Positions 3,261 through 28,796 of a stretch of 29,902 nucleotides of DNA are shown one piece after another. The notes under the pieces were generated by a model. It worked only from the letters and a program-made list of their open reading frames with translations. It had not been told where the DNA came from and did not search any database. The stretch covers positions 1-29,902 of the forward strand of contig CAXKVV010000047.1 of NCBI GenBank assembly GCA_964058805.1, in the 5' to 3' direction. The DNA comes from Schoenoplectus triqueter (taxonomy: Eukaryota; Streptophyta; Magnoliopsida; Poales; Cyperaceae). The first letter of the stretch is position 1, and every line of letters begins with the position of its first letter. Both the position numbers and the translations under genes were made by a program.

Positions 3261-3279
<19 letters not shown>

Positions 3280-4087: not shown

Positions 4088-4115
<28 letters not shown>

Positions 4116-4119
<4 letters not shown>

Positions 4120-4360: not shown

Positions 4361-4370
4361 TATATGTATA

Positions 4371-6560: not shown

Positions 6561-6893
6561 AATATGATACATTTCTTTACTAAAATTTAACTCGTCAATA
6601 ACCTTAGGGTAAAATAAAGAACGTTATATCACTACCAAACTGGGATACGAAGGACTAAGAACTAAAAACTAGGTTAGGTTTTTTAGGATGGGGTTGAGTA
6701 TTAATTCCTATAGGAGCAGGATTGCTTGCTGTTTTCTCTCTCAATTAGTACAAACATCACTGTGACATTTTAAGCAAACAAAAAGGGATCTCTCGTGTGA
6801 GAAGATTGAATGGTTCATACCATTGATTTAAAATATGAATTTCAATATACGTGCGGATAGTCATCGCATACCGCATATGCGGTATGCGGCCGC

Positions 6894-8568: not shown

Positions 8569-8570
8569 AT

Positions 8571-8582
8571 TGGTATCAGAGC
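8571..8582 (+). promoter_or_regulatory. Primer-binding site for initiator tRNA-Met
   Basis: TGGTATCAGAGC begins two bases after the 5' LTR. This is the standard complement of the plant initiator methionine tRNA 3' end and primes minus-strand DNA synthesis in most plant copia elements. Confidence 0.95.
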
Positions 8583-10584
8583 AAGGACGTTTTCTAGTTG
8601 ATTTTTAGCCTATTTATGTATATTTGATACATAGAAATGTTATTTGGATAATCTATTTGCTTGTATTCTTGAAAATTTTCTTGACTATTCTATTTCATAA
8701 ACTATCATTTGTGACCATAAATGATTAGTCTATTTGATAGAATATTTATTTGATGCATGAGTTGCATTTTGGAGTTACCCGATTGGAGAAAATGTTGTTT
8801 CTTTCGATCGAACGGTAAAATAATTTTAAAAGTAAATCTATCCATTAAATAGTAATACAATCTCTCATCCAAAATTTGTTTATAATGTCTAGAGTAGAAC
8901 AAAATTTATTTCATAAAATTTGGACGAATTTTAAATGTGATTCAATGAGAAACCGTTTCAGCCGTTGTGCTGAAAACAGCACTGGGGTCCCTTGTTGTGA
9001 CCCAAGTTTGGCTTAGTTCGGTTTAGAATTACTTGAAATCCTTTTGAGTGATTGTTATACTGTTGTTATAGTAATAATTTAGACTAAACAAAGTACGGAT
9101 GGATTTATGAATAAAATCTAAAAGTGGTAGATGATAAGGTTGTTTTAGCTTAAGGCTGAAACCTTTTTCATTTTTTTTTATCTCTGGGATTGAGATCTAT
9201 CAAAACTGTTTTAATGGGTATATATACATGTCTAAAGGAGTCCATGTGAATTTTTTGAGATTTTTTAGGCACCGAAAATATTCGGGTACTTTTTCGAAAA
9301 GTTTGTATATTGACCAAGTCAAGTTAAATTAGATTTATTAATATCATTGTAAGTTAAGAGTTAAAAAAATGATATTATAATCATTTATTTTCTGTTGAAA
9401 GAAAAGAAATTAATTTTGAAGTGTCAAAATTTAAGACTAGGGTTTAAATAATCAAATTAGTTGATGTTTTGCAAAGCTTGTTTGAGTGATTGCAATTTCT
9501 CGATTTAAATATTCTTAAAATTGCATTAAAATTTTGTTTACTCTTACTTGCTGTTGACAAAAGTATTTTAAACCTATGTACAAAAGGATAATGACAAGCA
9601 AATAGATTTAGAACCAAATAATGAATTAGGGGCAAATAAAGTAGCATGTGCATGGTATATGTGCTAACTTGTTTTTGTAGGTGGATTGTGGGTTTGTATG
9701 GCTCATGATTATCAATGCCTTGTGTGTTATATGAATGTTGTGTGAATGTTTGTAATGCGGCCTAAGGTGCCATTGATTATTCATTAGATTAATTTAATTA
9801 TGGCAAAGTATGTTAGATTGCCATTGATGTATTATTTCATTCATGGCTTGCATGCCACTTAGGATTTAGGATTGGGGAATTCTAAAATGTAAATTTTTAT
9901 TTTATTTTAGAATAGTTCTAAATGTAGAATAGGAATGGATGGGTGTTAGTAGCTTAGAAAATATTTCTTTCATGGAGATGATCGAAGAAGCTACAATATG
10001 CAAGCGGGAGCCATACAAGCTCACGAAGCATGTGTTATGATTTGAGATGCTTATTTATTTTATGTGTTGTATGATTGAGTATCATAGGATAGGTATGGGT
10101 GTATGTTGAAATGACTACAAAAAAAAAACACATAAAATGTCAAGTCCCATAAAATATCAAGTGTGAATACCCTCCCTACTCTATCCTTTTCAAATCATCG
10201 ATCGTATTTCAACGAGACCTACTCAGTAGGAGTTGTTTGCTATCTTTGGGAGTTGAGGGATACGTCCGACGTATCATGACCAAATAGAGAAAGGTTAGCT
10301 TGACAAGGTTATGAAAACAGTTTTGGACCTAGGGGTATAGTTTGTAAATTGTATAAAGATATTAATTACAAACCAAGAGTCATATGGAGATATGATCGGT
10401 AAAGTAGTTGCCCACCTAAAATAAACTAAATCAAGTTCATGCCGCCGCTGGCTTGTCTTAGTTGAAAATATGGATCTTGGACCTACTACAAAAGGGGACG
10501 ATTAATTGTAGTGGGAATTTTATTACTAATAAAACTATACATGAATAAAATAATTAAGACCTTTACTTTGAATATTTGTAGATT
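8583..10584 (+). other. Copia untranslated leader, about 2 kb
   Basis: The stretch between the primer-binding site and the gag start has no frame above about 70 codons and no recognisable domain. It should hold the packaging and dimerisation signals of the element RNA, but I cannot point to them. A long leader fits the Angela/BARE group. Confidence 0.7.
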
Positions 10585-13500
10585 ATGGCAAATCAATCTT
10601 TTTCGCTGCGTTCGATCTTAGAAAAGGAAAAACTTGCCTCCAACGGTTCCAATTATATTGATTGGCACCGTAACCTTAGAATTGTTCTGAGGCAAGAGAA
10701 GAAAGAGTATGTCCTATCCACTCCAGTTCCTCTGCCTCCGGGCAACAGGGCCAGCAAGGAGGAATAAGAAGCGTATAACAAGCATTTTGATGATGAGTCA
10801 GATGTGAATTGTCTCATCATAGCTGTTATGAGTCCTGAGCTTCAGAAGCGTTTCATGGACTCCGCTTTAGACTCCTGCGAGATCATGGAGCAACTTAAGG
10901 AATTGTTCCAAAAAAAAGCTCGTGTAGAACGGTGTGAAATCACCAAGGCTCTCGTGGAATGCAAAATGGCTGAAGGTAGTTCTGTAAGCTCTCATGTTAT
11001 GAAGATGATGAGCTACATGCAACAACTTGAGAAGTTGGATAATCCCGTACCACAAGGGATGACTACTGATTTTATCATCAACTCTCTCCCACCCAGTTAT
11101 TCGGGTTTTGTCATGAACTTTCACATGAATGATATGGAGAAGAGTCTTGATGAGCTCCATGAGATGCTCAAAATGGCCGAAGAGGACATTAAGAAAAGTG
11201 GTCCCAAAGTTGTGCTAAGTGTTAGTGACAAAGGGAAAAAGATCAAGAAGAAAAACGCTTACAAAACCAAAAAGGGCAAAGGAAAGGCTCCAGTGAAGAA
11301 CACAAGTGGTCCTAAAGGAAATCAAAAGTTGAAATCCCCGGCTACTCCTGACACTGAGTGCTTTTATTGCAAGGGAAAGGGACACTGGAAGAGAAATTGT
11401 CCAAAGTACCTCGCCGACAAGAAGGCAGGGAACGTCCCTAGCACTTCAGGTATTTTTATTATTGAAGTCAATATCACTACTTCTAATTCTGAATGGGTAT
11501 TTGATACCGGATCTTGTGCTCACATTTGTCAAAATGAACAGACACTAAAGAATAGAAGGCAGTTAAAGAAAGGTGAAGTAATGCTACGAGTTGGAAACGG
11601 TGCGAATGTGTCCGCCGTTGCCATAGGAAACATAGAATTAGTTTTACCTAGTGGACTTTTATTGGAGTTAAAAGATGTTTACTTCATTCCATGTATTTCT
11701 CGAAATATTGTATCAATTTCCTTATTAGATTTGGATGGTTATCATTTTGCTTTCAAAAATAAATGTTGTTCCTTCTTTAGAAATGATATTTATTTTGGGA
11801 GTGCAAATTTATTAAATGGTCTATATATACTTAATATTGAAAGACCTGTTTTGACTTTGGATAATAACAAGAAACAAAAGACCTCACATGAAAGTATGAC
11901 TCTCATGTGGCATTATCGCTTAGGTCATATAAACGAAAAACGCATTAAAAGACTTCAAAATGTTGGACTCTTAGATCAATTTGGTTTTGAATCAATTGAT
12001 ACATGTGAATCATGTTTATTAGGAAAAATGATCAAAGCACCTTTTACCAAGAAAGGTGAAAGAGCAAGTGACTTGTTAGGTCTCATACATAGTGATGTTT
12101 GTGGACCCATGAGCACTTGTGCAAGAGGAGGTTATCAATACTTTATTACTTTTACTGATGATCATAGTAGATATGGATATATTTACTTAATGAGACATAA
12201 ATCTGAATCTTTTGAAAAGTTCAAAGAATTCAAAAATGAAGTTGAAAACCAACTAGATAAGAAAATTAAGGTCTTACGATCAGATCGTGGTGGCGAGTAC
12301 TTAAGTCATGAATTCGGTACATATCTAAAAGAATGTGGAATTGTTCCACAACTCACTCCACCTGGAACACCTCAATGGAATGGTGTTTCCGAAAGGAGAA
12401 ATCGAACTTTATTAGACATGGTTCGATCAATGATGAGCAAAAGTGACTTGTCCATTTCTTTTTTGGGTTTTGCGTTAGAAACAGCAGCATTTACACTGAA
12501 TAGAGTTCCATCGAAATCTGTAGATAAAACACCTTATGAGATATGGTTTGGAAAGGTTCCTAATATGTCATTTCTCAAAATTTGGGGTTGTGAAGTATAT
12601 GTCAAACGAATGATATGTGACAAACTTAGACCCAAATCAGATAAGTGTTATTTTGTAGGATACCCTAGGGAAACCAAAGGGTACTACTTCTTTAATCATG
12701 TTGAGAATAAAATAGTTATTGCACGACATGGTATATTTTTAGAAAAAGAGTTTCTTGCAAGGAGAAGTAGTGAAAATAATGTGAACATTGAGGATGTTCA
12801 AGAAACATCAAAAATTGATGATTCAACATTAGATATTATGTCAAGTGGGAGTGAGACTATATCAAATGTACAAAATGTTGTACAAGAAAGTCAAGAACAA
12901 CCTCCACTCGTCCTACGAAAGTCTACAAGAGAAAGTCGCCAACCCGAAAGGTATTTGGGACTTCATGAGATTCTTATGCTTGATAGTGAGGATCCAATAA
13001 ATTATAAGGAAGCGATGGAAAGGCCCGATTCCAATGAATGGCTTGATGCAATGAAATCTGAAATGCAATCCATTTATGACAATAAGGTATGGACCTTGGT
13101 TGATATTCCCGAAGGGATTAAACCCATCGAAAACAAATGGGTCTTTAAAAGAAAAACTGGCATGGATGGAGATTTGACTGTGTACAAAGCACGGCTTGTA
13201 GCGAAGGGTTTCAAGCAAATTCAAGGAGTTGATTATGATGAAACTTTTTCGCCCGTGGCTATGTTCAAGTCAATTAGGATTTTATTAGCAATTGCCGCAT
13301 TTCATGATTATGAAATATGGCAAATGGATGTCAAAACCGCCTTCCTAAATGGCAACTTAGAAGAAGATGTATACATGATACAACCTAAGGGTTTTGAAGA
13401 TCCTAAAAGTACTAAGAAAGTATGTAAGCTTCAAAGATCTATTTATGGATTGAAGCAATAATCAAGAAAATGGAATATACGTTTTGATGAAGAAGTTAAG

Positions 13501-14571
13501 AAGTTGAATTTCATCAAAAATAATGAAGAGCCTTGTGTATATAAAAAATTCAGTGGGAGTGTGGTTGTGTTTCTTATTCTTTATGTAGATGATATACTTC
13601 TAATTGGGAATGATATACCAACCTTGAATAATATCAAGAGTTCATTAAAGAAAGTGTTCTCAATAAAAGACTTGGGTGAAGCTACGTATGTATTGGGAAT
13701 AAAGATCTATAGAGATAGATCAAGAAGACTCCTAGGTTTGAGCCAAAATACATACATAGACAAGGTATTAAAAAGATTTAGAATGGAAGATTCTAAAAGG
13801 GGATTCATACCTATGTCGCATGATATACACTTGAGTAAAACTCAGTGTCCTTCAACCAATAATGAGCGTGAAGAAATGAGTAAGGTACCATATGCTTCAG
13901 CTATTGGTTCGATAATGTATGCTATGTTATGCACACGTCCTGACGTGTCATATCCTCTTAGTGTGACTAGTCGATATCAAGCTGACCCAGGAAAGGCACA
14001 TTGGACGGCAGTCAAGAACATTCTCAAATATCTTAGAAACACTAAGGAATTATTCCTTGTTTATGGTGGAGAAACAGAGCTCGTTGTAAGGGGTTACACC
14101 GATGCCAGTTTTCAAACCGATAGAGATGATTCGAAATCACAATCAGGCTATGTGTATATTCTTAATGGTGGCGCTGTAAGTTGGAAGAGTTCCAAACAAG
14201 AGACTACAGCAGATTCAGTCACCGAGGCAGAATACATAGCAGCGAGTGAAGCAGCGAAAGAGGGAGTTTGGATCAAGAACTTTCTAACTGAGCTAGAGGT
14301 GGTTCCAAGCATCTCAAGTCCAGTGGATCTATACTGCGACAACACAGGAGCCATAGCTCAGTCAAAGGAACCAAGATCACATCAAAGATCCAAACATGTT
14401 CTAAGACGATATCACTTGATCCGCGAGATTGTAGATCGAGGTGATATAAAGGTCAATAAAGTGGACGGGGTTGCAAACACAGCTGACCAACTAACAAAAC
14501 CTCTTCCAAGAGCCGCGCATGAGATGCACATTATATCTATGGGGATTAGGCATATGAGTGATTGGCTTTAG
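10585..14571 (+). pseudogene. Copia gag-pol polyprotein with two in-frame stops
   Basis: One continuous frame that starts MANQSFSLRSILEKEKL and ends at TAG 14569-14571. It is interrupted by TAA at 10765-10767 (early gag) and TAA at 13459-13461 (within reverse transcriptase, after YGLKQ). There is no frameshift, since all three parts share the frame. In order: gag; a CCHC zinc knuckle at 11359-11400; the protease active site DTGS at 11503-11514; the HHCC pre-integrase domain near 11910-12030; integrase with catalytic Asp 12094, Asp 12283 and Glu 12391 (D-35-E spacing); reverse transcriptase with the YVDD box near 13582-13593; and RNase H with Asp 14101, a Glu near 14224 and Asp 14338. Motifs needed for catalysis are all present, so the stops are the visible lesions. 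As it stands it cannot make full-length polyprotein without readthrough. Confidence 0.93.
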
Positions 14572-14655
14572 AGGTTGTTTTAGACATATGAGATATATTC
14601 TATATTGTATTGGATAGAGATCATCTTTTGATTGACTCTAGTCCAAGTGGGAGAT
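14572..14655 (+). promoter_or_regulatory. 3' untranslated spacer and polypurine tract
   Basis: AAGTGGGAGAT at 14645-14655 directly abuts the 3' LTR. This is the usual copia polypurine tract that primes plus-strand synthesis. The preceding 70 bp are non-coding. Confidence 0.85.
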
Positions 14656-16331
14656 TATTAGTTTTATGTCCTAGGAGCCAATCAAATATTAATGGCTTTA
14701 TATTTTATTCATGCATTGGATGATTTTATCATTTTGTTCCTTGAGTATTTTATTATAAATAGACCATTTGGGTTGATGACTTGGAATTGCAGAACTCTAT
14801 TAAATAAATTAATAAATAATAAATACTCTAAATGTCCCTAATCAAGATAATTAGCAGGAACACTAATTATCGGAGAAGATTAGTATGTGGATTGAAAGAT
14901 GATCAGGTTCTGCATATCATATGATAAAGCGTTATCAATTTAATCACATAAATAGCTAATAGCGATTAGTTTATTGGACATGACCCAAATGAAATAATGA
15001 ATGGATTGTGTTTGTGTCATCATTTTGTTTCATTAGTATTTTGAATTCTATGTATGAGATGGTTCATCTTTTTCACATAAAGATTGATCATAGTGAGTAT
15101 TTTCTAACGCTGACCGTAACAGGCAGTCATAAGGATCATGCTTCTTTGTTCATGAATTATGTAGGAATAAAGTTATTTATCAAGAATACTATGTCCCTCA
15201 TAATGAGTGATGATATCTTTGGGCCCCTTGATGAAGTATGATTGTAAGCATGCAATATATATAATTAAGTGATTAATTATATACAATCAGCTTTGGATCA
15301 AGAAATGAATAAATCGCAAGGATGACACATTCCTACCTTGGATTATTCTTGATATCATGTGACATAAGAATTAACACAACAAGAAATATATTTTCTTGTA
15401 TAGGATCGTAATATTATAATGTAGATATTATCTGTGTCAATTGGGTAGTCGTAATGTGTTGCTAGATACCGCTTACGACTTGTAAAATTAAAAGGAGTTT
15501 TATTTTTACCGCCAACATAACATAGATCCTCCCGGGTCACACCATATAGACTCTTAACTAACGTGATAGAATTCAGTCATAGAGATGACAACCTTAATCA
15601 CTAATATGTGTAACATATTATAATATGAGAAATTAATTATTTGGGCCATAATAATTAATTGGATTAATTGGGTCACAAATAATATATTGTTTGGGCCATA
15701 ATAATTAATAGGACTAATTTGGCCACAAAACAATATGGCCCATTGAAGGGGGGCTGCCATGAGAAGAGAGAGAAAGACAAAAGTTATTTGATTGTATGAA
15801 AAGCAACAAATATGGTTGTATAAAAAGTTACAATAGCAATTAACCTTTTATCAAAAGTTGAAAAAGGTGTAACTTTTTATTAATGAAAATATTTTGAAAT
15901 ATCTCAAAATATGGGGATATAACCCCTTGGCTGTCCACCTCTCTCTCCATCCCATTTTTTTTCTTCTTGTTCTCTTATTTCTTGTTCTCATGTATTGAGA
16001 AAAATCCAGAAAATTAAAGAGTTAATTTTGAAGGGTTGAAACCTTGATTAAGGAAAATACTAATTTGTTCTACTAGCATAGAACTATTAGTAGTTAGTTA
16101 ATCCTAGGTGGATACTTGGAGAGGCGTCATTCTTTTGGCGCTCGGGAAGATAGGAGAAGAGCTCGCAACCACCATCCTTGGAAGTCTACACCTTCGATTA
16201 CGATATTGAAGGAGGTATGAGCTTCTTAACCCCTTTTCGGTTTAAATATCAACTAGATAACAATGGATCCTTGGTTGTTGCTTGTAAATTTTTGAAATTT
16301 ATACCATATGCATAACCTAAAAATCCTAACA
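14656..16331 (+). repeat. 3' LTR of the copia element
   Basis: 1,676 bp, the partner of 6894-8568, offset by 7,762 bp. It differs by single-base changes spread along its length and by one extra G near 15750. It ends CTAACA, followed by the GCCGC target copy. Confidence 0.95.
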
Positions 16332-16675: not shown

Positions 16676-16819
16676 ACACAACATATTATTCTGAGTACGG
16701 TCCGACCACTGCATACGCATATGCGTCCGCATGGACCGCATTTTAAAACAGTGGTTCATACCTTTCTCAACGTGCTCGATCAATTAATGCAAGATTTAGT
16801 AAATTATTATTAGCTGGCT

Positions 16820-16851
<32 letters not shown>

Positions 16852-16874
<23 letters not shown>

Positions 16875-17288
16875 AGGCTAAGGTGCTCCATGAAACATCA
16901 AATCTCTTGTGCTTCACGTCCGTATCTCGAATTTAAAAGTTTAAATGGCCAATCCAAATCGTAGAACATGATCTTCATATTGAAATATCTTTCGAGATCA
17001 AATTTTATATATTTTTTTAATTTTTTGCTTTTTTTTAGATGGATACAAAATAACTAGTTTTTGAAAATCAGTTCTAAAAATAATAATAAAATATTCAATG
17101 TTTGTATATTATTTTTAAAAATTAAAAAAAGTGACATGGAAAACTCAAAACATCCCAAATTTTGGTACCCCACAAGATTTCAATATGAAGAATTTAATAA
17201 GAGTGAAAAATCAAAATTTGGAGATCATTTGATATACTTTTTGAACTAAGCTCACGGAGGTCTTCCGTGAGCTTAAGAACACCATAGA

Positions 17289-17321
<33 letters not shown>
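16852..17321. mobile_element. Chimeric palindromic element: left half A, right half C
   Basis: Positions 16852 to about 17060 follow the left arm of family A (TAGGCTAAGGTGCTCC ... GATGGATACAAAAT). From about 17060 the sequence is the right half of family C (TTCTAAAAATAATAATAAAA ... CTCACGGAGG). The two halves cannot pair with each other. Both outer edges are normal: (TA)n(GA)n on the left, (CT)n(TA)n on the right. Confidence 0.65.
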
Positions 17322-17339
<18 letters not shown>

Positions 17340-17751
17340 GGGATTGACTACGGTGATTCCATAAGCATTTCGATCTGAAATGCTTATGGCTCGAATTTTA
17401 AAACCCCGTACTCGAAAGTTCAATTTAAATATCTCAAAAGATTCTTCATATCTTAATCTTGTAGATTATCAATTTTTATCAAATTTGAAATTAGTTTACT
17501 ATGCTTAATAATTTTTGAAATATGACTCTAAAAATAATTTAAAATACTCATTTTTATAGGCCAAATATTACTATCTTTTAAAAATTATTAAGCATAGTAA
17601 ACAAACTCCAAACGTAATGAAAATTGATAATCTACATAATTATGATATGAATAAATTTTTGAGCTATTTAAATTAAAATTTCGGACGTGGAATTTTAAAA
17701 TTTGAGTCATAAACACTTGACCGAAGTGCTTATGGAATCACCATAGCCAAA

Positions 17752-17774
<23 letters not shown>
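17340..17774. mobile_element. Palindromic element D1
   Basis: Ends GACTACGGTGATTCCATAAGCA and, inverted, ...TGCTTATGGAATCACC. The arms share TTACTATGCTTAATAATT / AATTATTAAGCATAGTAA and a centre near 17550. A small palindrome CATTTCgatctGAAATG sits inside the left cap. Non-coding. Confidence 0.7.

Positions 17775-17832
<58 letters not shown>
17775..17832. repeat. (TA)29 microsatellite
   Basis: 58 bp of uninterrupted TA between elements D1 and E1, the longest of the TA runs that separate the palindromic elements in this window. Confidence 0.95.
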
Positions 17833-17836
<4 letters not shown>

Positions 17837-18604
17837 GAGGTTAAGGTGCTTTGCAAAGTAAAGAATTATTTTTATTTGGCACGAGATTTTATATTTCGAT
17901 GGTTCAAATGATCAATCTGAGTTTCTCAAAAAAAATTATGCCAAATCTGATGAGATATTAAATTTCATAATTTTTTGAGTTTTCTAACTATTTTTAATTA
18001 TTTTTAAAAATAATCTTGTTGAACATTAAAAAATTATTTCAGGGCTATTTTTAAAAATAATTTAAAAATAGTTAAAAATCTTAAAAAAATCATAAAATTT
18101 AATATTCCACCAGATTTTGACATAAAAAAATATTGAGAAATTTAGATTGACCATTTGAGCCTTCGGGATAAAAAATCTCACACCAAAATAAAAATGATTC
18201 TTTACTTTGTAAAGCAGCACAAAGCCTCCTGTGCTTCGCGTCTGTATCTTGAATTTGAAAGTTCAAATGACAGATCCAAACCGTTAAAAGTGATCTTCAT
18301 ATTGAACAATCTTTGGAGACCAAAATTTTTATTTTTTTAATGTTTTTGCTATTTTTTAGATAGGTACAAAATTGCCAGTTTTGAATGGTGCAGAAATCGT
18401 TAGATCAGCAAATTTTGTACACATTTAAAAAATTACATAAATTTTTAAAAAATATATATAATTTGATCTCCAAGGATATTTTAATATGAAGATGATGTTC
18501 AATGATTTGGATCGGTATTTTGAACTTTTAAGTTCAAGATACGGACGCAAAGCACGAGAGATTTTATGCTTCGCGAAGCACCATTGTCTCTCTATCTCTC
18601 TCTC
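17833..18604. mobile_element. Fused palindromic elements E1 and A4
   Basis: 17833 to about 18213 is a nearly complete family E palindrome (GGTGAGGTTAAGGTGC..., arms GGTTCAAATGATCAATCTGA / TTAGATTGACCATTTGAGCC). Where its right end should continue, it joins a family A element that lacks its first ~20 bp (AGCACAAAGCCTCC...). A4 then runs to GAAGCACCATTGTCTC at 18588. The (CT)n(TA)n(GA)n spacer between them is missing. The junction falls in the terminal mini-palindrome that both families share (AAAGCA / AAGCAC). Confidence 0.65.
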
Positions 18605-18618
18605 TATATATATATATA

Positions 18619-19036
18619 GAGAGAGAGAGAGTAATGATACCGGGAGCTTAAGCTCACGAAGGCCTTCCGTGAGTTTAACTCAAAAAATATATCAAATCAT
18701 CTCCAAATTTTAATTTATCATACTCATTAAAAAATTTATATGAAAATCTTATGGGATGCAAAAATTTAGAGTATTTTAAATCACCGTTTTTAATTTTTAA
18801 AAATCATCTCTAATAATAATAATAAAATATTTAATGTTTGAATATTATTTTTAAAAATTAAAAACGGTGACTTAAAAAACTCAAAACACTCTAAATTTTT
18901 GCATCCCATAAGATTTTTCAAATAAATAATTTAATGAGCATGATAAATTAAAATTTTAAGATGATTTGATATAATTTTTGAATTAAGCTCACGGAAGGCC
19001 TCCGTGAGCTTAAGCTCACGATATCTTCTCCGAGCT
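18619..19036. mobile_element. Palindromic element C4
   Basis: Bounded on the left by a TA run (18605-18618) and GA tract. The left cap carries the palindrome CACGAAGGCCTTCCGTG and the right cap CACGGAAGGCCTCCGTG. The arms match through ATGCAAAAATTTAGAG / CTCTAAATTTTTGCAT, with the centre near 18825. The right edge runs into about 55 bp of unrelated sequence (19037-19091) instead of a TA run. Confidence 0.7.
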
Positions 19037-19103
19037 ATGAGCGCGCGTAGGGGGGGAAGTCTATGATCTGCTTTCAAAAAATGAGCAAAGCTATATATAT
19101 ATA

Positions 19104-19538
19104 GAGAGAGAGAGAGTGTGTGTGTGTGTGTGTTAGACTATTGTGAAAACGTTTGCATTCCGAGCTCAAGTGCATACGGCTCAAATTTTATGATAACACG
19201 TCCGAAATTCAAAATTATCATTCTCATTAAATTCTTTATATCAAAATATTGGGGGTACAAAAAATTAGGGTATTTTGAGTTTTCTAAGTATTTGTTTTGG
19301 ATTTTTGAAAATCAACAACAACAATTCAATATTTTTATTATTATTTTAGTGATGATTTTCAAAAAACTAAAACAAATACTTAAAAAACTTGAAATATCCC
19401 AAATTTTTGTATCCCCTAATATTTTGATATGAAAAATTTAATGAGAATGATAATTTTGAATTTCAAACGTGTTACGATAAATTTTGAGCCGTATGCACTT
19501 GGGCTCCAAATGCAAATATTTTCACAATAGTCTAACTT
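19104..19538. mobile_element. Palindromic element F1
   Basis: Ends GTTAGACTATTGTGAAAACG and, inverted, ...ATTTTCACAATAGTCTAAC. The arms share GTGCATACGGCTCAAATTT / AAATTTTGAGCCGTATGCAC, with the centre near 19330. The left edge shows (GA)n then (GT)n tracts. The only copy of this family in the window, and among the better conserved palindromes. Confidence 0.75.
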
Positions 19539-19562
19539 TATATATATATATATATATATATA

Positions 19563-19972
19563 TTTAGTTTGTCTAGCATGCTTCCATTATCATTTTAACT
19601 GAAATTCTAATTAGTCAAATTTTACTTTTTCATGTTCATAATTTCAATTTAAGTATCTCAATAAATTCTTTATATCATAATCTTGTAGAATACTAATTTT
19701 AATCATGTTTAGAGTTAGTTTACTATACTTAATGATTGTTGAAAGATAGCCCTGAAATAATATAAAAATAATAAAAAGTATATGTCAAAAAAGATTACTT
19801 TCTAAAAATCATTATTAAACTAACTCCAAACATGATGAAAAATAGTATACTATAAGATTATCATATAAAAAATTTATTTAGCTACTTAAATTAAAATTTT
19901 GAGTTTGAAAAATTAAAATTTGACTCGTTAACATTTCGAGTTGAAAAGCTAACGTATGTATGCTAGACAGAC
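19563..19972. mobile_element. Palindromic element D2
   Basis: Family D inner arms (TTTACTATACTTAATGATT, TCATATAAAAAATTTATTTA) with its own cap, TAGTTTGTCTAGCAT on the left and ATGCTAGACAGACTA on the right. The centre lies near 19770. Confidence 0.65.
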
Positions 19973-19994
19973 TATATATATATATATATATATA

Positions 19995-20397
19995 GAGTGA
20001 GGCTATGGTGCTTCGCGAAGCACAAAACCTCCCGTGCTTCGCGTCCGTATCTCGAATTTGAAAGTTCATACGCTCGATCCAAACCGTTGAACATGATCTT
20101 CATATTGAAATATCTTTGGAGATCAAATTTTATATTTTTTTGAATTTTTTTGCTATTTTTTAAATGAGTATAAAATTTGCTGATCTAACGATTTCTGCAC
20201 CATCCAAAACTAGCGATTTTGTACCCATCTAAAAAATAGCAAAAAAATTCAAAAAAATATAAATTTTGATCTCCAAAGATAGTTCAATATGAAGATCATG
20301 TTCAACGGTTTGGATCGGGCGTATGAACTTTCAAATTCGAGATACGGACGCGAAGCACGGGAGGTTTTGTGCTTCGCGAAGCACCATAGCCTCACTC
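19995..20397. mobile_element. Palindromic element A5, near-perfect copy
   Basis: At 403 bp this is the cleanest copy. The arms start GAGTGAGGCTATGGTGC and end as the complement GCACCATAGCCTCACTC. They match almost without change over about 190 bp on each side, around a centre near 20195. The edges go straight from the element into (TA)n with no GA or CT expansion, so it shows the probable original terminus. The caps GTGCTTCGCGAAGCAC are palindromes themselves. No open frame of interest. Confidence 0.82.
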
Positions 20398-20419
20398 TAT
20401 ATATATATATATATATATA

Positions 20420-20828
20420 GTTTGTCTATGGTGCTTCCAGTAGCACTTCGGCCGAAACGCTATCAGTCCAAATTTTAATTTTTTATACTCAAAATTTCAA
20501 ATTTAAGTAGCTAAATAAAATCTTTATATCATACTTATAGAATACTATTTTTATCGTGTTTGGAGTTAGTTTACTATGCTTAATGATATTTAGAAAGTAA
20601 GCATTTTTAACATATAAATTTTATTATTTTTGTATCATTTTAGGGCTATCTTTTAAAAATCATTAAGTATAGTAAATTAATTCCGAACATGACAAAAATT
20701 ACTATTCTATAAGATTATCATATAAATATTTTATTGAGCTACTTAAATTAAAATTTTGACAATGAAAAATTAAAATTTAGATTGGTAGTATTTCGGCCGA
20801 AGTGCTACTAGAAGCACAATAGACAAAC
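20420..20828. mobile_element. Palindromic element D3
   Basis: Cap AGTTTGTCTATGGTGC / GCACAATAGACAAACT with the nested palindrome CTTCGGCCGAA on both sides. The arms share the family D interior (GTTTACTATGCTTAATGAT / ATCATTAAGTATAGTAAA). Bounded by TA runs. Confidence 0.75.
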
Positions 20829-20848
20829 TATATAAATATCTATATATA

Positions 20849-21252
20849 GAGACAGAGAGACAGAGAGAGAGTTATGCTATGGTTAGTCGTGATGTATAAA
20901 ATATTTTTGTATTTCACGTCGTATATCTCATTTTTAAATTCAAAACACCGATTTGACCGTTAGAAGTGTTTTTCATATTGAAATATGTTTGGAGACTAAA
21001 TTTTATATTTTTAGAAAAAATTCTATTTTTTGAGGATTAGAAAATATTTTTTATTAAAAAATCATAAAATCAAAGCATTTTCATCCCATAAAAAAATAGA
21101 AAAAATTTCAAAAAAAATATATAAAATTTGGTCTCCAAACATATTTCAATATGGAGAATACTTTTAACGGTCAAATTGGTGTTTTGAATTCATAAATGAG
21201 AGATACGATACGAAGTACAAAAATATTTTGTACTTTGTGACTAACCGTATCA

Positions 21253-21272
<20 letters not shown>
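20849..21272. mobile_element. Palindromic element G1
   Basis: Ends GCTATGGTTAGTCGTGATGTA and, inverted, ...CTAACCGTATCATC. The arms share CCGATTTGACCGTTA / TAACGGTCAAATTGG and TTTGGAGACTAAATTT / AAATTTGGTCTCCAAA, with the centre near 21065. Its inner arm resembles families A and B. Confidence 0.7.
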
Positions 21273-21304
<32 letters not shown>

Positions 21305-21307
<3 letters not shown>

Positions 21308-21625
21308 GTGAGGTTATAGTGCTTTGTAAAGAAAAGAACTGATTTTACTTTGGCATGAGATTTCATATCCCAATAGCTTTAGTGATCAATCTAAGTTAAA
21401 TAATATTTTTTTTATATTAAAATCTTGTGGGATATTAAATTTCATGATTTTTTGAGATTTCTATCTATTTTTTAAATTATTTTTAAAAATATCTTTGTTT
21501 GATGTAATAAAATGATTTATTTCAGAGCTGTTTTTAAAAATAATTTAAAAAATAGATAGAAAGCTCAAAAAATCATGAAATTTAGTATGTCATAAGATTT
21601 TAACATAAATACATTATTGAGTAAC
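21305..21625. mobile_element. Palindromic element E2, right end missing
   Basis: The left arm and centre match E1 (GGTGAGGTTATAGTGC, TTTTTAAATTATTTTTAAAA). The right arm stops after AACATAAATACATTATTGAG, about 100 bp before the expected terminus, and goes directly into a TA run (21626-21645). Confidence 0.6.
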
Positions 21626-21645
21626 TATATATATATATATATATA

Positions 21646-21816
21646 GTAAAGATACCGTGAGTTTAAGCTTACGGAGACAATCCGTGAGGTTAACTCAAAA
21701 AATATATCAAATCATCTCGAAATTTTAATTTATGATACTCATGAAATTTTTTATATGAAAATCTGTTGGGATGCAAAAATTTGGAGCGTTTTGAGCTTTT
21801 TAAGTCTTGTTTTTTA
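21646..21816. mobile_element. Palindromic element C5, left arm only
   Basis: Typical family C start (AGTAAAGATACCGTGAG, then GATGCAAAAATTTGGAG). It ends abruptly near 21816, before the palindrome centre, where unrelated G+C-richer sequence starts with TGCGACAC. The missing half is not in the window. Confidence 0.65.
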
Positions 21817-22899
21817 TGCGACACTTTTTCGCGCACTCCGCACCACCGCTAGGTGGCGATGGGATGCGGAAGAAGGACATGGAGATCCCTCCTGAACGTG
21901 TATTTTAGTTGACGCCGGTTAATCTCGCCATCTTAGACTCATTGGAAGGCACATTTAGGGGTTTTTTTAGTGATTGTGAGTACTTGTAGATTCGGATGGG
22001 CGCAAGCCCCTACCGTTAATTATCCTAGGCTATTAACCTCGAGGCACCTCTGGATCTTGAAAGGGAGAAGCAAATAGTACAGCTAAATGATGGTCAAGTG
22101 GTCACGTGCTTCAGTGATCAAGATCACTGAAGCATCTTGGATTTACCAACTGGTCAATCCAGTGGGATATGATGGTGAAAAGATGAACTTACTACAGATC
22201 AGTTCAATCTTTACCGCTTCGGGAGGCAATCTTACTACAGATCAGATTGACCTCTACGGAGGGATGGAAGGTGAGTCTACTACAGAACGACTCGAACTTA
22301 GTTGACCTAGAAGATAAACCTACTACAGAATGGTTCAATCTTTACTAGTCAACGACCAATCACACAAGATACAACTCGAATCACTTAGCCGGTTGATCTT
22401 GAGGTTGGTGAATCAGGAGAAGGACGGATTTGGCCCACATATTTCTTCTCACTTATCTTCTAGATCATGAATTTCAAGCACTAAGCTGATCCATAAACCT
22501 AGGAACACAACTGCACACAAAGTCAAACCTGAAGCACTGAGCCAGTTTGACATTGAGGCATGTGTCAGTGAATGAACCTACTACATAATGGTTCATATTC
22601 ACTGTTTGAGGATGAATCTACTATAGAACGATTCAATCCTACAATCTCGGGAGATGAACTTACTACAGATCAGTTCAATCCCCTGAACTAGAAGACAAAC
22701 TTATCAACGGATTAGTTTAGTCTTACTAGTTTGACTGGTCATGAATTACTTGTTCATGACACAGAGTCATCATGATGTCATCTCCTTGGACATCATGATG
22801 TTCTTCTATTTTGAAATTAACATGTTTGCTCATGTCTGATGTCATAGTCTTTGTCATTCTTCGACGGACGTCAAGATGTTCTTGTCTCGACTGGCTGTT
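21817..22899 (-). mobile_element. 3' non-coding region of the gypsy element, possible LTR edge
   Basis: Sequence between the broken C5 element and the gypsy polymerase stop. It starts TGCGACACTTTTT, which could be the outer LTR end of a minus-strand element (an LTR ends in CA). No second LTR, polypurine tract or envelope-like frame was found. Most of 22107-22724 is a hairpin tract (listed separately). Boundary assignment is tentative. Confidence 0.4.
22107..22724. repeat. Tract of short hairpins with a near-constant loop and co-varying stems
   Basis: Eight hairpins share the loop TACTACAGATC or a close form and a build of inner stem, usually one unpaired A on the 3' side, then outer stem. 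Inner stems: GAACT/AGTTC (22185, loop 22190-22200), CAATCT/AGATTG (22227), GAGTC/GACTC (22273), AACC/GGTT (22317), ATGAACC/GGTTCAT (22572), GAATC/GATTC (22614), GAACT/AGTTC (22656) and AAACT/AGTTT (22697). A second type has a 16-nt loop related to CTGAAGCACTGAGCCA: CAAC/GTTG (22372), AT plus ATG/CAT with one mismatch (22467) and GTCAAAC/GTTTGAC (22522). Two further hairpins are TGCTTCAGTGATC/GATCACTGAAGCA (22107-22134) and GGATT.ACC/GGT.AATCC (22139-22160). Stem sequence changes on both sides together; loops stay the same. Function unknown. Confidence 0.85.
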
Positions 22900-25851
22900 C
22901 TAAATATTGCATTTGAAGATTCTACCATCTTTGCCCGAAATGTCCACCGCTCCGAAAGGGTAGACTTTCCTCACCGTGAAGGGTCCGGACCATCGAGACT
23001 TGAGCTTGCCTGGAAAAAGCCTTAGTCTAGAATTAAACAAAAGTACAAGATCACCTTCTTTGAAGATACGGCACGAAATGCGCTCATCGTGCACCTTCTT
23101 TGTGCGTTCCTTGTATATTCGGGCGTTCTCGTAGGCTTGAAGACGCATTTCCTCCAGTTCGTGCAAGTCGAGGATGCGCTTCTCTCCAGCGGCTTGTAGC
23201 TCCATGTTGAGCGTGCGTGTGGCCCAGTATGCCTTGTGTGCAATCTCGACGGGCAAGTGACAGGGCTTCCCGTAGACTAGCATGAACGGGCTCATTCCGA
23301 GTGGCGTCTTAAAAGCGGTGCGGTACGCCCAAAGTGCGTCGTTGAGCTTGAAAGCCCAATCCTTCCTTGTCACCGACACCGTCTTCTCCAAAATAGCCTT
23401 GATTTGCCTGTTAGACACTTCAACCTGCCCGTTAGTTTGAGGATGATAAGGAGTTGATACCTTGTGGGTTACCCCATGCCGTTTCAGAAGTTGCTCAAAC
23501 TGGCGGTTGATGAAGTGCTTGCCACCGTCACTTATTACAACGCGCGGCACTCCAAAGCGCGGGAAGATCACATCCTTGAAGAGGCGCTTAACAGAGTTAC
23601 TATCCGCTTTGGCACAAGCTAGCGCCTCCACCCATTTGGACACATAGTCCACTGCCACAAGAATGTGCTCATTACCTTTCGAAGAAGGAAATGGTCCCAT
23701 GAAGTCGATTCCCCACACATCGAAAATCTCGACCTCCAGAATGGGCTGTTGTGGCATCTCACTGCGCCTTGATATGTTTCCGGTCCTTTGGCACTCGTCG
23801 CACGATTGCACGAAAGCATGTGCATCCTTGAAGATGGTTGGCCAAAAGAAACCTGACTGCAAGACCTTGGCAGCAGTTCTAGAGGAGGAGGTGTGGCCTC
23901 CGTAAGCAGATGAATGGCAATGGAAAAGAATAGAGTGTACCTCCTCTTTCGGCACACACCGCCTAATCATCCCGTCAATACCAACTTTGAAGAGGAAGGG
24001 CTCTTCCCAGATGTAGTGCTTAGCATCGGCTTTGAACTTTTTCCTCTGCTGGTATGTCATGTCCTCCGGAATCACGCCGGAGCAATGAAAATTGGCAAAA
24101 TTCGCATACCATGGTGTGCTTGTGGTGCGCGTCCCAATCGCGTAGAGTCGCTCCCCAGGTATCGAATCGTCGATCGGTACACGGTCCTTCTCCTCGCCTT
24201 CCCAATGTAGTCTTGACAAATGGTCAGCTACTGAGTTTTCCGACCCCTTTTTATCTTGGATTTCAATGTCAAATTCCTGCAAAAGAAGAATCCAACGAAT
24301 AAGACGGGGTTTGGCATCTTTTTTAGCGAGAAGATACCTTAGTGCAGCGTGGTCGGTGTAGACGATGATCTGAGATCCGACCAGGTAGGCACAAAACTTT
24401 TTGAGAGCATACACCACTGCCAAAAGCTCCTTTTCTGTCGTGGTGTAGTTGGCTTGTGCGGAATCAAGGACTTTGCTCGCGTAGCAGATGGCAACGGGTT
24501 TCTTGTCCTTCTTTTGGCCAAGAACGGCCCCCACAGCATAATCACTGGCGTCGCACATGATCTCAAAGGGTTGAGACCAGTCCGGGGGCTGGAGAATGGG
24601 AGCGGACATGAGGGCTTTCTTCAACCTGACAAAAGACTTAACACATTCATCAGAAAAATCAAATTCGTTATCTTTTATCAGAAGGTTTGTTAAGAGCTTA
24701 GCAATTCGAGCGAAGCCTTGAATGAATCGTCGATAGAATCCGCAATGCCCGAGAAAGCTTCGCACGTCCTTAACAGTCTTAGGCACGCACATTTGCTCGA
24801 TCACTTCTATCTTCGCCTTATCCACCTCGATGCCCTTACCAGACACCTTATGTCCCAAAACCATGCCTTCCTCCACCATGAAGTGGCATTTCTCCCAGTT
24901 GAGCACCAAGTTAGTTTCCTCGCACCGCTGCAAAACTTTACACAGATTTTCAAGAGAAGAGTTAAAAGAAGTACCAACAATAGAAAAATCATCCATGAAA
25001 ATTTCGACTTCTTTTTCAATATAAGCAGAGAAAATTCCCATCATTGCCCTTTGGAAAGTAGCAGGTGCGTTACACAAGCCAAACGGCATCCTACGATAGG
25101 CGAAGGTGCCATACGGACATGTGAACATTGTTTTCTCCATATCTGCAAGGTGAATTGGTATCTGGAAGAAACCGGAGTATCCATCGAGATAGCAGAAGTG
25201 GGAGTGATTTGCCAAACGCTCAAGCATCTGATCAACAAATGGCAACGGGAAGTGGTCCTTACGTGTCGCGGCGTTCAGCTTGTGGTAATCGATACACATC
25301 CTCCACCCAGTCGTGGGTCGCATTTGGACCATTTCTCCCTTCTCATTTTGAACAACTGTGTGCCCTCCTTTCTTGGGCACCACATGAATCGGACTCACCC
25401 ATTTACTGTCGGAAATAGAGAAAATAATGTCAGCTTCACATAATTTAAGAATTTCTTTCTTTACCACGTCTTGAAGCACTGGGTTGAGTCGTCTTTGGTG
25501 TTGCACCGATGGCTTATGATCGTCCTCCAGATGTATCTGGTGCTCACAAATAGCTGGGCTGAGCCCCTTGATGTCATGAATAGAGTACCCGATGGCCCCC
25601 CTGTGAAGTCTCAACTTCTCCAAAAGTTTGTTAGTTTCATCGGGGCTTAATTGAGCACCCACAATAACGGGAAAAGATTTTTCCTCATCAAGAAACTCAT
25701 ACCTGAGGTTGTCGGGCAGCGGGTTAAGTTCGACCTTTTTAGGAGTGTCAAATGGTGGAATGCTGCCCTCACCGTGCTCTGGATCAGTTATCTGCGAGGA
25801 GTCCAGAGCTGCCAGCGGGTCGTTGGGGTTACCAGACGGGTCGCAGACTGT
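22900..25851 (-). CDS. Ty3-gypsy polymerase (RT, RNase H, integrase), Athila-like, lacking gag and protease
   Basis: The minus-strand frame is open from 25851 (stop TAA at 25852-25854) to TAG 22902-22900, about 984 codons, without internal stop. There is no natural start in it; counting from the GTG at 25662: reverse transcriptase has LDGYSG at about 159-164 and FMDD at 222-225; RNase H has MCDAS at 369-373 and [11 protein letters not shown] at 435-445; the integrase HHCC finger is at about 581-624; the integrase catalytic triad is Asp in GIDFMGP (653), Asp in SDGG (712) and Glu in NGQVEVSNR (748); and a GPF-type C-terminal motif is near 893. The order RT-RH-IN is gypsy, and the wording before the RT ([16 protein letters not shown], then the [14 protein letters not shown] block) is that of the Athila lineage. 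The protein would stop just after the integrase C-terminal motif. Gag and protease are absent upstream, so the piece is a fragment despite its clean frame. Confidence 0.88.
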
Positions 25852-25854
25852 TTA

Positions 25855-25933
25855 CCCTTGAAAAATTTCAAGGATGAGTAGCCGAATAAATGAAAAGAGA
25901 GGGCCCACTGATCAGAAGAGGTCGCTGCCTAAC
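25855..25933. other. Junction between polymerase fragment and tandem repeats
   Basis: The frame of the polymerase is broken at 25852, and coding similarity is lost within a few bases. The sequence then leads into the first 242-bp repeat. No protease or gag motif was found here on either strand. Confidence 0.4.
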
Positions 25934-26620
25934 CCCGGAACAAATCCATTAGTCCCACAAGGAAATGTCAGGGTGAGAGACAAGGATATAAATACTCCAC
26001 CACCTCCTATTCATTCGAGGTGGCTGACCATCGGGAGATTTTAGAGAGAGAAAAACTCCTGATGGGTCAACCATATGATTACACTTTTTCTGACAAGTGG
26101 GACCCACCTGGCAGCCCCTTATGAGCAGCTCTAACAACATAGACCTAGCCCATTTTACTAAGAAACCTAATTAACCCGGAACAAGGGTTAAACGCTAATC
26201 CCACAAGGAAATATCAAGGTGCGAGACAGAGATATAAATACTCCGCCACCCCCTGCTTATTCGAGGTGGCTGACTCTCAGGAGATTCCAGAGAGAGAAAT
26301 CTCCCGAGGGGTCAGCCATCTGATCACATTTTTTTCTGACAAGTGGGACCCACCTGGCAGCCCCTTATAAACAGCCTCAACAGCATGAACTTGGCTTATC
26401 TAATGAGTTTAATCAACCCGGAACATGGGTTAAGCATTAATCCCACAAGGAAATCCTAAATGCAGAGCAAGGATATAAATACCCTGTCATCTCCTATTCA
26501 TTTGATGTGGATGACGCTCAAGAGATTCAAGAGAGAGGAAGAGATCTCTTGATGGGTCATCCATGTAATTATTTTTCACTGACAGGTGGGCCCCACACCT
26601 CAGTGACCTATCAAGGGAGT
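25934..26620. repeat. Three tandem repeats of about 242 bp, each with a hairpin and TATA-like box
   Basis: Units start CCCGGAACA at 25934, 26175 and 26417, with following blocks AATCCCACAAGGAAAT, TATAAATA (25987, 26233, 26474), a hairpin and a GTGGGACCCACCTGGCAGCC-type block. The third unit is shorter and ends near 26620. Hairpin arms are TGGCTGACC.../GGTCAACCA (26021-26073), TGGCTGAC.../GTCAGCCA (26267-26318) and TGGATGAC.../GTCATCCA (26508-26563). The TATA-like boxes could be functional or simply part of the repeat. No open frame spans the units. Confidence 0.85.
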
Positions 26621-27420
26621 CAGAATTGAACTCTAAGAATCTACTCTCAGAGCAAACCCTAAGAACTGAAGCAGTATAATCCCTATGCAACAAGGAATGA
26701 TGTCAATGCCAAGCTAGTATTCTGATACAAATAATCATGAGAAATTTCAAATGTGATTTTGCTTTCAAGGCTGACCTGGTGCCAAAGCTGTGAGCAACCA
26801 CCTAACCATGCTTTGATTTGTGTCAATTACTGATAAGTAGTCAGTTCTTTGACCAAGTCACCCTCATGTTAAGGGATTGAAAGTCAATTTCACAAGACTG
26901 ATCAGGTGCCAAAGCTGGGAGCAACCATCTGATCAAGTCTAGATTTGTATCAACTATTGACATGTAATCAACTGTTGATCAGATCAAACCCTAATGAATA
27001 TCAATATAAGTCTAATTGGTATTTAGTTAGGGTGGTTTCTGCAAGAGAGAGATAATTGGCAGAGACACCAAGCTACAATTGAAATCTGGGATTAATTTGG
27101 AGGAAGAGACAGGGTTTTATAGATAAAAGAATTTTTAATTCAAAGAGGCAGGGGTAAAAATGGAATTAAAAATTACAGGGATGATCATCATGAATTTAGG
27201 GATTTTTGGTGAAAATTTCATAATTTTTGGATAAGTGGAGCTATCAAAATAAATTCAGAGAAGATAAAACAGATTAAAAAGGGAAGATCAAGGGCTGAGA
27301 TTCAATCAAGGGTTCATCTGGGTGCAACTTGGGGACAGAGACATATCTGGGTGCAAACTGGGGATCCCAAACATATACACACAGAATCAGAGAAGAGAGG
27401 GTATGACACGTGTCAGCATC
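26621..27420. repeat. Non-coding stretch with a 127-bp imperfect direct repeat
   Basis: GGTGCCAAAGCTG(T/G)GAGCAACCA occurs at 26778 and again at 26905, with further similarity through GATTTGT(G/A)TCAA, a spacing of 127 bp. The second copy forms a strong hairpin: TGATCAGGTG (26899-26908) with CATCTGATCA (26926-26935), then an unpaired A and AGAC/GTCT outside. Its 17-nt loop resembles the 16-nt loops in the 22.3-22.5 kb tract. The rest (27030-27420) shows no gene. Confidence 0.65.
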
Positions 27421-27690
27421 TCATTGGGCCACTTCAGTGCCACGTGTCAGCACCCCATTGGTCCACCTCAGCCAGGTGGGCCCCACCACCACACTGACCT
27501 GACATGTGGGCCCCACCAACATGCCACGTGGCAGGCCATGATAGGTCCACCTCACTCCAATACATGCCACATGGCACCACCAGGGAAGTCCACCTCACCC
27601 CCTCTGTGCCACACGACACAATCATAGGAAGCCACCTCATTCAGCCTGTGCCACATGGCACCATACTACAGAGCCACCTCAGCAGCTGTT
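27421..27690. repeat. 42-bp tandem repeat with palindromic TGCCACRTGGCA core
   Basis: CCACCTCA recurs at 27463, 27547, 27590, 27632 and 27674 (84, 43, 42 and 42 bp apart). The palindromic core recurs at 27438 (TGCCACGTGTCA), 27522 (TGCCACGTGGCA), 27565 (TGCCACATGGCA), 27607 (TGCCACACGACA) and 27649 (TGCCACATGGCA). An extra GACACGTGTC lies at 27405. Two cores contain CACGTG, the plant G-box bound by bZIP and bHLH factors. The unit near 27480-27520 is diverged but keeps the spacing. Short frames across this block are artefacts of the repeat. Confidence 0.8.
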
Positions 27691-27939
27691 AATTGGATCA
27701 TTAATGCTAAAAGGGAAATGCTTAACCTAGCAACCAATCATAACATGCCAACTCAGCCCAATTAATATTAATCTATGAATTAATCAGCTAATGATCATCT
27801 CTGTGGGCCTAGGCACAGAAACTTACAGGTGGGGCCCTATTGTCAGGTCCATGAGCCAGAGGCGCATACTATTGTGTGAACCAAGCTCACACAAATAAAA
27901 GACAGAATTTAAATCAAAGAGATAATATGGAGTGTGTAC

Positions 27940-28084
27940 CTGGCCCTTGCGCATTGTCCCTCTGACTGTGGGTCCCACTCTGTGGCGGTTCACATGCGCC
28001 GAGACCGGCCCCTCCGGAGGCGCCTTCTTCTTCCTTTCTTCCTCTTCTTCTCTTTCTTCCGCGCGACTGGCCGAGAGGCGCCAT
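27940..28084 (-). CDS. Candidate first coding exon, product unrecognised
   Basis: On the minus strand ATG at 28084-28082 lies in a good plant context (ATCATGGCG). It opens a 48-codon frame rich in Arg, Lys and Glu (GRKRRRGRKEEE at residues 9-20), and then a donor site CCAG|GTACAC at 27940/27939. If unspliced the frame ends after about 56 residues. A TATA box lies about 210 bp upstream. The stretch is much richer in G+C than its flanks. No downstream exon was found, and the 42-bp repeats begin some 250 bp away. Alternative: TGGCGCC at this spot is the start of a gypsy-type primer-binding site (tRNA-Asp-like), and the sequence to its right would be the end of an LTR (...AATCA on the minus strand). 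I cannot decide between the two. Confidence 0.35.
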
Positions 28085-28292
28085 GATTGAACAAGTTAGA
28101 GACAGTAAAATCTTTCAGATTCCTTCAATAGAGAGATACATATCATTGATTAGAGCATGTGTCAAGTATGAATTTCGAGAAATATGAAGAGAGCTTGCAA
28201 TTGAATGAATTGGTGAAGAAGGTGATAGCAATGGTAATTGAGTAAAAATCGGGCTCAAATAGAGAAATGGAGATTTTTCATTATACAGAGGC

Positions 28293-28299
28293 TTTTATA
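28293..28299 (-). promoter_or_regulatory. Minus-strand TATA box
   Basis: Reads TATAAAA within CTATAAAAGCC on the minus strand, about 210 bp before the ATG at 28084. The region between is A/T-rich with pyrimidine stretches, as in a leader or the R-U5 part of an LTR. Confidence 0.45.
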
Positions 28300-28594
28300 G
28301 TATTTAGGAGAGCTCTCTGGCGATTGCCAAGTGTGGAGAAGGTTCTAGAATGATCCAAAAGAAAGTGAAGGCCGGTTAATTCTAGAGAATGGCAAGAGGG
28401 TAAATAGGGAGATACATATAACTAACTCCAAACGGCCTAACCACTGACAGCTGACTCAATTGAGTAATTAGAAAGCACAAATACATCCTAACCATTGATT
28501 TCAATTGGACCAAAGGTTGAGATTGAATCCAAGCCGTGATCCAAGTACTAATCACCCAACCAATCACCATTTAGCAATCTACACACCCTTAGCT

Positions 28595-28603
28595 TATATA
28601 AAT
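28595..28603 (+). promoter_or_regulatory. Plus-strand TATA box with candidate non-coding first exon
   Basis: TATATAAAT is followed by a purine-rich leader with no long frame (about 28630-28795), and then a good donor site, CACTG|GTATGT, with the exon ending at 28795. The pair would be a short 5' exon with an intron continuing to the right. The acceptor and coding part are not identified. Confidence 0.35.
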
Positions 28604-28796
28604 CGAATTGAAGAACACAGGTGAAGAGGGAGGAAGGAGAGAATAACCTAGCAGCTAGTAGCAAGAAGAGGAAAGAGTGAAAGAGGAGCTAATTGAGCCA
28701 ATTGATAGTAGTCTTGGTTTGTTTCAAGCCAAAGTCTCTCAATTCGGCCCATTCAAAGCTATTATACATTCTATTCATTATCTACAAGATCACTGG

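Follow-up and report, generated by a model that had tools for sequence, protein, structure and literature searches.

Organization of the window and the hairpin tract

The window analysed here is a 29,902-nt stretch of Schoenoplectus triqueter DNA (contig CAXKVV010000047.1, positions 1 to 29,902). Its hairpin tract occupies positions 22107–22724 and lies in a partial long terminal repeat (LTR) with a pol ORF beside it. The following features were assigned at the locus:

21815..22913, minus strand: 3′ part of an LTR copy, with the LTR 3′ end at 21815 (sharp common end, flanks differ)
22107..22134: 12-bp hairpin at the tract edge (fold and pair counts)
22137..22162: hairpin with the 12-nt loop TACCAACTGGTC, which resembles the loop of Q2, the eighth named hairpin
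22180..22211: hairpin A1, 11-nt loop
22223..22254: hairpin A2, 11-nt loop
22268..22299: hairpin A3, 11-nt loop
22311..22342: hairpin A4, 11-nt loop
22355..22409: longer hairpin in the A4–A5 interval
22522..22551: further hairpin in the A4–A5 interval
22569..22600: hairpin A5, 11-nt loop, with a different register of the outer stem
22609..22640: hairpin A6, 11-nt loop
22651..22682: hairpin A7, 11-nt loop
22692..22724: hairpin Q2, 12-nt loop TATCAACGGATT (covariance-model match, E 9.4e-4)
22900..25662, minus strand: pol ORF outside the hairpin element (Pfam: reverse transcriptase, RNase H, integrase)
25849..28617, plus strand: 5′ portion of another LTR copy, same family but opposite orientation

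The initial annotation had described eight hairpins with a near-constant loop, and all of them were present at the named places. In seven of them the loop is 11 nt long and reads TACTACAGATC or a variant thereof, and in the eighth it is 12 nt long. An unpaired A had also been noticed at a constant place on the 3′ side of most hairpins; among 133 distinct hairpins, pre-selected for at least four of five inner pairs, the base left unpaired 3′ of the inner stem was A in 105, G in 23 and T in 5. A search of Rfam at gathering scores gave no match within the window.

Elsewhere in the window, a Copia-type element was recognized by eye from its ORFs at 6894–16048, and its end blocks are near-identical (99–100% over 300-nt blocks). 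At 2302–4729 and 16795–21816 lie nested inverted repeats together with CT/TA microsatellites; the 25 longest of 61 inverted-repeat arm pairs measured 135–318 nt, with 72–93% complementarity.

The LTR and the element that carries the tract

The neighbouring pol had been taken as the context of the tract, which was placed 3′ of an Athila-like polymerase. This context had to be abandoned: the tract does not extend that pol at its 3′ side. The LTR copy in the window is truncated at 22913, where the pol fragment joins it, and in other copies the homology runs past 22913 into common sequence without pol. The tract belongs to the LTR of a different, Tat/Ogre-like element. For the second LTR copy of the window (25849..28617), the contig ends before the expected place of the tract.

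In the 82-Mb assembly, 40 scored of 682 candidates gave 51 stretches homologous to the tract. The first 40 matches each spanned 513 or more of the 631 query bases, with 100% identity for the window itself and 84–92% for the others. Among the 36 matches kept after dropping those that started beyond query base 12, homology begins at window positions 21814–21817 in 33, and most copies read TGTGCGACC.. there. The LTR 3′ end reads TATGCGAC.. on the plus strand of the window and TGTGCGAC in most copies. This terminus had 726 genomic matches at up to 3 mismatches, and its reversed control had 0. The opposite LTR terminus is ..AAGGGTAAACA. The LTR has TG..CA ends (TGTTTACCC..GGTCGCACA). Target site duplications of 5 bp were clear in two of the four copies examined (CATCT in C13 and GCGCT in C1906); a third was ambiguous within a TA repeat, and C1146 had none.

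A complete LTR of 7059 bp was delimited in the young copy L048 (contig C22). It extends from TGTTTACCC to GGTCGCACA over L048:133–7191, and GGATC and TGGCACACCCGGTGGGACC come directly after it. The primer site TGGCACRCCCGGTGGGAC was found 5 nt after the LTR end at 273 places (at most 1 mismatch). The complementary tRNA 3′ end had two genomic matches, both in tRNA-Arg(TCT) genes identified by ARAGORN; tRNA-Arg is the Ogre-type primer. An additional RNase H between RNase H and integrase is a mark of the Tat clade (Ogre, Retand).

Of 67 right-end matches, 20 had the internal flank AAGAGCC.. and one had a close variant of it. Internal-flank ends and other-flank ends were spaced by 21,520 bp (C1009), 21,790 bp (C2084), 21,519 bp (C751) and 21,545 bp (C422), as expected for the two direct LTRs of full elements. 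C1743 and C2080 depart from this simple pair pattern, each with two internal-flank ends separated by about 19.5 kb. Given a 7059-bp LTR and about 21.6 kb of LTR-to-LTR spacing, full elements should measure close to 28.6 kb.

In contig C2065 (loci L031/L032), a gag domain (PF03732, E 3.6e-8) lies at L031:7807–9999 on the minus strand, opposite to the orientation of the tract. Based on this relation, the sense strand of the tract in the window is the minus strand. An ORF with a plant mobile domain (PMD; PF10536, E 5.6e-27) was found antisense to gag at L031:1325–3271 (+). Scoring of the 7996 candidates that shared most words with the PMD protein gave 26 relatives; 19 were in JGI contigs, with 37–96% identity. 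The first relative listed under an organism name belongs to Rhynchospora and is 37% identical. The tracts of sister LTRs, compared in seven pairs chosen by spacing, were 97.5–100% identical, which indicates that the family was recently active. Taken together, the carrier of the tract is a giant Ty3 retrotransposon of Tat/Ogre-like type, and the tract is found within the final ~1 kb of its 7-kb LTR.

Several other repeats were seen in these elements. The LTR end together with the primer site is repeated at 146-bp spacing in C22:535544–535865, C13:652590–652765 and C1004:5012–5333. A unit with three hairpins (~134 bp in L048) is tandemly duplicated at L048:6578–6880 and L046:1270–1545, and a separate ~134-bp tandem-repeat array lies elsewhere in the LTR, outside the tract (L029:9434–10000, L030:1–222). 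A further stem-loop was seen by eye just inside the internal region, beside the LTR (L031 from ~1330, at the flank AAGAGCC..).

Pairing within and between tract copies

The regular geometry of the hairpins was compared with chance. A pattern of a 5-bp inner stem, an 11-nt loop, one unpaired base and a 5-bp outer stem, each stem with at least four of five Watson–Crick pairs, was found in 6 stretches of the tract; 2000 dinucleotide shuffles gave a mean of 0.17 and a maximum of 3. Against 20 shuffles each, the folding z-scores of the tract were −9.8 as DNA, −5.5 as minus-strand RNA and −7.3 as plus-strand RNA. In the young LTR L048, folding of the 200-nt tract windows was weak to moderate, with sense z between −0.3 and −2.9. 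Two other stretches of this LTR, L048:601–800 and 1001–1200, folded more strongly than the tract windows, with sense z of −5.9 and −5.6.

A covariation test had been proposed for the hairpins of the window, and they exceeded their shuffles on most of its measures. In the seven 32-nt hairpins with an 11-nt loop, 90% of the cells were paired, and 13 cells with changes on both sides were spread over 8 of the 10 stem pairs. None of 500 shuffles attained the observed value on four of the five measures; 408 of 500 did so on the fifth, the number of further pair types (10 observed). A chance origin, or plain tandem duplication of one hairpin, is therefore hardly credible. Duplication does occur, as the doubled 134-bp unit with three hairpins in L048 (6578–6880) demonstrates, but it does not explain why differing stems all pair, and neither the 0/500 results nor the geometry count of 6 against a maximum of 3 fits this explanation.

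The covariance model R2, built from the seven hairpins, gave 311 matches at E ≤ 0.01 across 38 sources, and in a run on 20 sources all matches at E < 0.01 fell inside a tract. The best 150 of the 311 matches, aligned by fitting to the model, represent 77 distinct hairpins. These had 94.7% paired cells and 123 cells with changes on both sides in 9 of 10 pairs; all five measures were reached by 0 of 500 shuffles, and slid controls gave 2–19 such cells. In the 133 distinct hairpins that were anchored on the loop and then selected for at least four of five inner pairs, the innermost pair was CG in 65, TA in 54, CA in 5, TG in 4 and another combination in 5.

Copies within one lineage are related, and the figures of the model-based, loop-anchored and genome-wide searches are thus counts and not independent events: anchoring on the loop only, with the stems unused, gave at least four of five Watson–Crick inner pairs at 217 of 244 anchors, and pattern searches of the genome matched 905 places with 11-nt loops and 2132 with 12-nt loops (3,037 together), with 0 matches for both controls. 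The possibility raised earlier, that the genome holds this single tract only, can be set aside. In the 2132 matches with 12-nt loops, the middle pair was A-T in 1703 and G-C in 378 (2081 together), and the innermost pair was C-G in 1923 and T-A in 170 (2093 together). One exact pattern was also searched for in viral contigs, with 0 matches.

Pairing was also followed between corresponding positions of different tract copies. By parsimony reconstruction on a tree of 47 tracts (L059 and L061, out of 49, fell below the 450-letter rule), both partners changed on 48 branches, 27 of which ended in a Watson–Crick pair. In 1000 partner shuffles the respective means were 17.9 and 3.6 and the maxima 33 and 11, and slid partners gave 30–41 both-change and 3–11 Watson–Crick-ending branches. 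When L063 and L060 were also omitted for suspected local misalignment, the pair-restoring branches fell from 27 to 21, out of 34 both-change branches; the 45-tract null had means of 9.4 and 2.6 and maxima of 19 and 9 (1000 partner shuffles), and slid partners gave 18–27 and 3–7. Pairing is thus kept while the sequence changes, as the initial annotation had stated for the window, both in paralogous hairpins and at corresponding positions of different copies.

It should be noted that when all pair-restoring events were counted on the 45 tracts, including one-sided repair, the null was not exceeded: there were 49 on internal branches (null mean 34, maximum 55) and 53 on terminal branches (null mean 98). 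This broad null is high because shuffled pairs begin mismatched and have more to repair. In a set of 32 mostly old copies (matches of at least 450 bases, duplicates removed), 45 pairing and 17 non-pairing double-change cells were found against ~37 expected doubles, and the variation was 0.083 in the loop, 0.05 in the inner stem, 0.07 in the outer stem and 0.07 in the rest. This modest signal, with loops no less variable than the rest, would fit a set made up mostly of dead copies.

Based on these results, the stems are very probably under selection on structure. Paired stems could also arise by mutation bias and have no function if one arm were corrected from the other when templates are switched, either in reverse transcription or as DNA is replicated. 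Watson–Crick co-changes against single changes away numbered 5:68 on internal and 15:264 on terminal branches, with no clear internal enrichment, and some tips of the tree show replacement-like multiple co-changes (for example, L056 at A7); both observations suit such arm-to-arm copying, as do wobble intermediates without strand preference. However, the copying of an arm should erase the unpaired base that most hairpins keep at a constant place, and it does not predict that subfamilies differ jointly in their loops by different extra bases. Sister LTRs of seven elements differed at 36 positions, 3 of them in type-A stems (58 hairpins) and all three one-sided, a comparison of low power; counting only hairpins with 11-nt loops, there was 1 stem difference. 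We regard arm-to-arm copying as improbable. Of the two origins first proposed for the fold, maintenance is thus favoured, and copying between arms is weakened.

Loop variation, probable position in the RNA and possible function

When ten tracts were set side by side, the stems were hairpin-specific and the loops alike, a likeness that is in part by construction, since a permissive criterion on the loop (TA or AA at its start, an ACAGA-like core) was used to pick the hairpins. Whole-tract folds of four tracts were also made without this criterion. Each tract has about 8–10 hairpins with the common loop motif. Type-A loops are 11 nt long in the window, L044, L068 and L053, and mixed in L048, L066 and L070. 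Three of the seven young elements (L072, L074 and L076) had 12-nt loops at each of the eight type-A hairpins detected in them, of the form TAC-NN-ACAGA-NC, where NN is AA, CA, CT or AT depending on the hairpin, and their stems were paired. These varied extra bases suggest several separate loop changes in a common direction, with either polarity between 11 and 12 nt. The simplest reading of the shared differences is that the loops are adapted to one reader. A Pumilio-like UGUA site was considered as the identity of the loop and dropped, as some 12-nt loops have no UGUA. No conserved self-complementary motif was seen in the loops by eye.

In L048, the hairpins lie at 6222–6876 and the LTR ends at 7191, which places them ~0.3–1 kb upstream of the primer site. 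Sense TATA-like motifs occur at L048:325–5441, upstream of the tract. The best of them, at L048:3021, was dropped as a conserved promoter after a search of the other fetched loci over 3 kb gave no match; few of these loci include the relevant LTR segment. The likely place of the tract is the 5′ leader (R-U5) of the genomic RNA. Were transcription to start downstream of it instead, the tract would be found towards the 3′ end of that RNA; both R-U5 and U3-R are contained in the genomic RNA, so the tract should be included with either start site.

The initial annotation had left open whether the fold exists as RNA or as a DNA cruciform, and strand tests on wobble pairs did not separate the two. 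The two kinds of wobble intermediate were about equally frequent on the tree (24 vs 26 on internal and 87 vs 100 on terminal branches). In the seven young elements, the ratio of sense-type to antisense-type wobbles was 17:4 in inner stems and 9:25 in outer stems; after four rows judged spurious by eye were dropped, it was 14:0 in inner stems, at only four positions, and 5:24 in outer stems.

We consider that the structure probably acts as RNA. A function at the DNA level would involve LTR hairpins, single-stranded or extruded as cruciforms, that are bound by a protein, for instance an antisense-encoded product, to control transcription or integration. The DNA folding z of −9.8, the lack of an overall strand preference in the wobbles and the antisense PMD protein encoded by the element are in line with this explanation. 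Short interrupted stems with 11–12-nt loops, however, are poor candidates for cruciform extrusion, and the non-Watson–Crick states of inner stems in young elements suit sense RNA, although at 4 positions and with the outer stems opposite. On balance, we find a DNA-level function quite improbable.

An RNA array could also have another role: it might regulate translation from a long leader, by shunting or ribosome entry, affect the stability of the RNA or be bound by a host RNA-binding protein. In L048, 76 ATGs occur in the 4.1 kb from one TATA-like motif to the LTR end, and a scanning ribosome would need help there; the leaders of plant pararetroviruses use structure in this way, as described in part of PMC5902531. 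A repeated near-identical loop, on the other hand, is more suggestive of a binding site than of a single large fold, and we see such other roles as unlikely.

With middling confidence, we favour a conserved RNA stem-loop array in the LTR of a giant Tat/Ogre-like element, with stems that are kept to display the loop to a trans-acting factor. Selection on active copies would maintain the stems for this display. A single factor, with Gag of the element itself as the likeliest candidate, would dock at the repeated loop, and the docking may help to package or dimerise the genomic RNA; the analogy here is with the psi stem-loops of retroviruses and the hairpins of Ty1. A role of the array in Gag binding and packaging is a tentative candidate. 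More speculative, and in our view rather doubtful, is a lock-and-key arrangement in which ~8–10 stem-loops show one loop motif to the element's own Gag and subfamilies, having altered the loop jointly in many of their hairpins (11 vs 12 nt), would each package their own RNA.

The element resembles the Tat clade (Ogre/Retand) in its tRNA-Arg primer site, gag domain PF03732, PMD ORF, TG..CA ends, tandem repeats and large size. To our knowledge, little is known about how plant LTR retrotransposons select RNA for packaging. If our reading is correct, the array would be a defined multi-copy RNA motif with evolutionary support, available as thousands of natural variants and young copies in one genome, and the motif variants would make both the cis signal and its protein partner directly testable. 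A loop difference common to many hairpins could then be a natural record of the co-evolution of an RNA motif and its reader.

According to the part of PMC6317226 considered here, a PMD is present in 57% of Ogre elements, whose LTRs reach about 5 kb and whose total length reaches about 24 kb; the present LTR (7059 bp) and the element length of near 28.6 kb implied by the spacing (21.5–21.8 kb in four pairs) are above the ranges given there. The LTR is also far longer than the 315–1194 bp that PMC11963269, in the part considered, gives for Retand. The word "hairpin" does not occur in PMC6317226, and neither "hairpin" nor "secondary structure" occurs in the main text of PMC11963269. The initial annotation knew of no described element part with such a design; likewise, full-text literature searches, with sources covered in part, returned no published description of such a hairpin array, and literature searches of the same partial coverage returned no plant LTR-retrotransposon packaging signal of multi-copy design.

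Further parallels come from retroviruses and Ty1. Retroviral psi sites consist of multiple stem-loops in the 5′ UTR (PMC5454406, introduction, in part). The present array has multiple conserved stem-loops, as packaging signals do, and it is likewise predicted to sit close to the primer site, with the promoter on one side and gag on the other; its presence in the genomic RNA would follow from its place in the LTR. In comparison with psi, each tract here has ~8–10 hairpins with a common loop motif, and binding to it is a candidate function. The hairpins of the Ty1 leader are a further likeness within LTR retrotransposons; their loops act in dimerisation, which compensatory mutations support (PMC5454406, in part). 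Ty1, however, uses two complementary loops, whereas the loops of the present array are alike.
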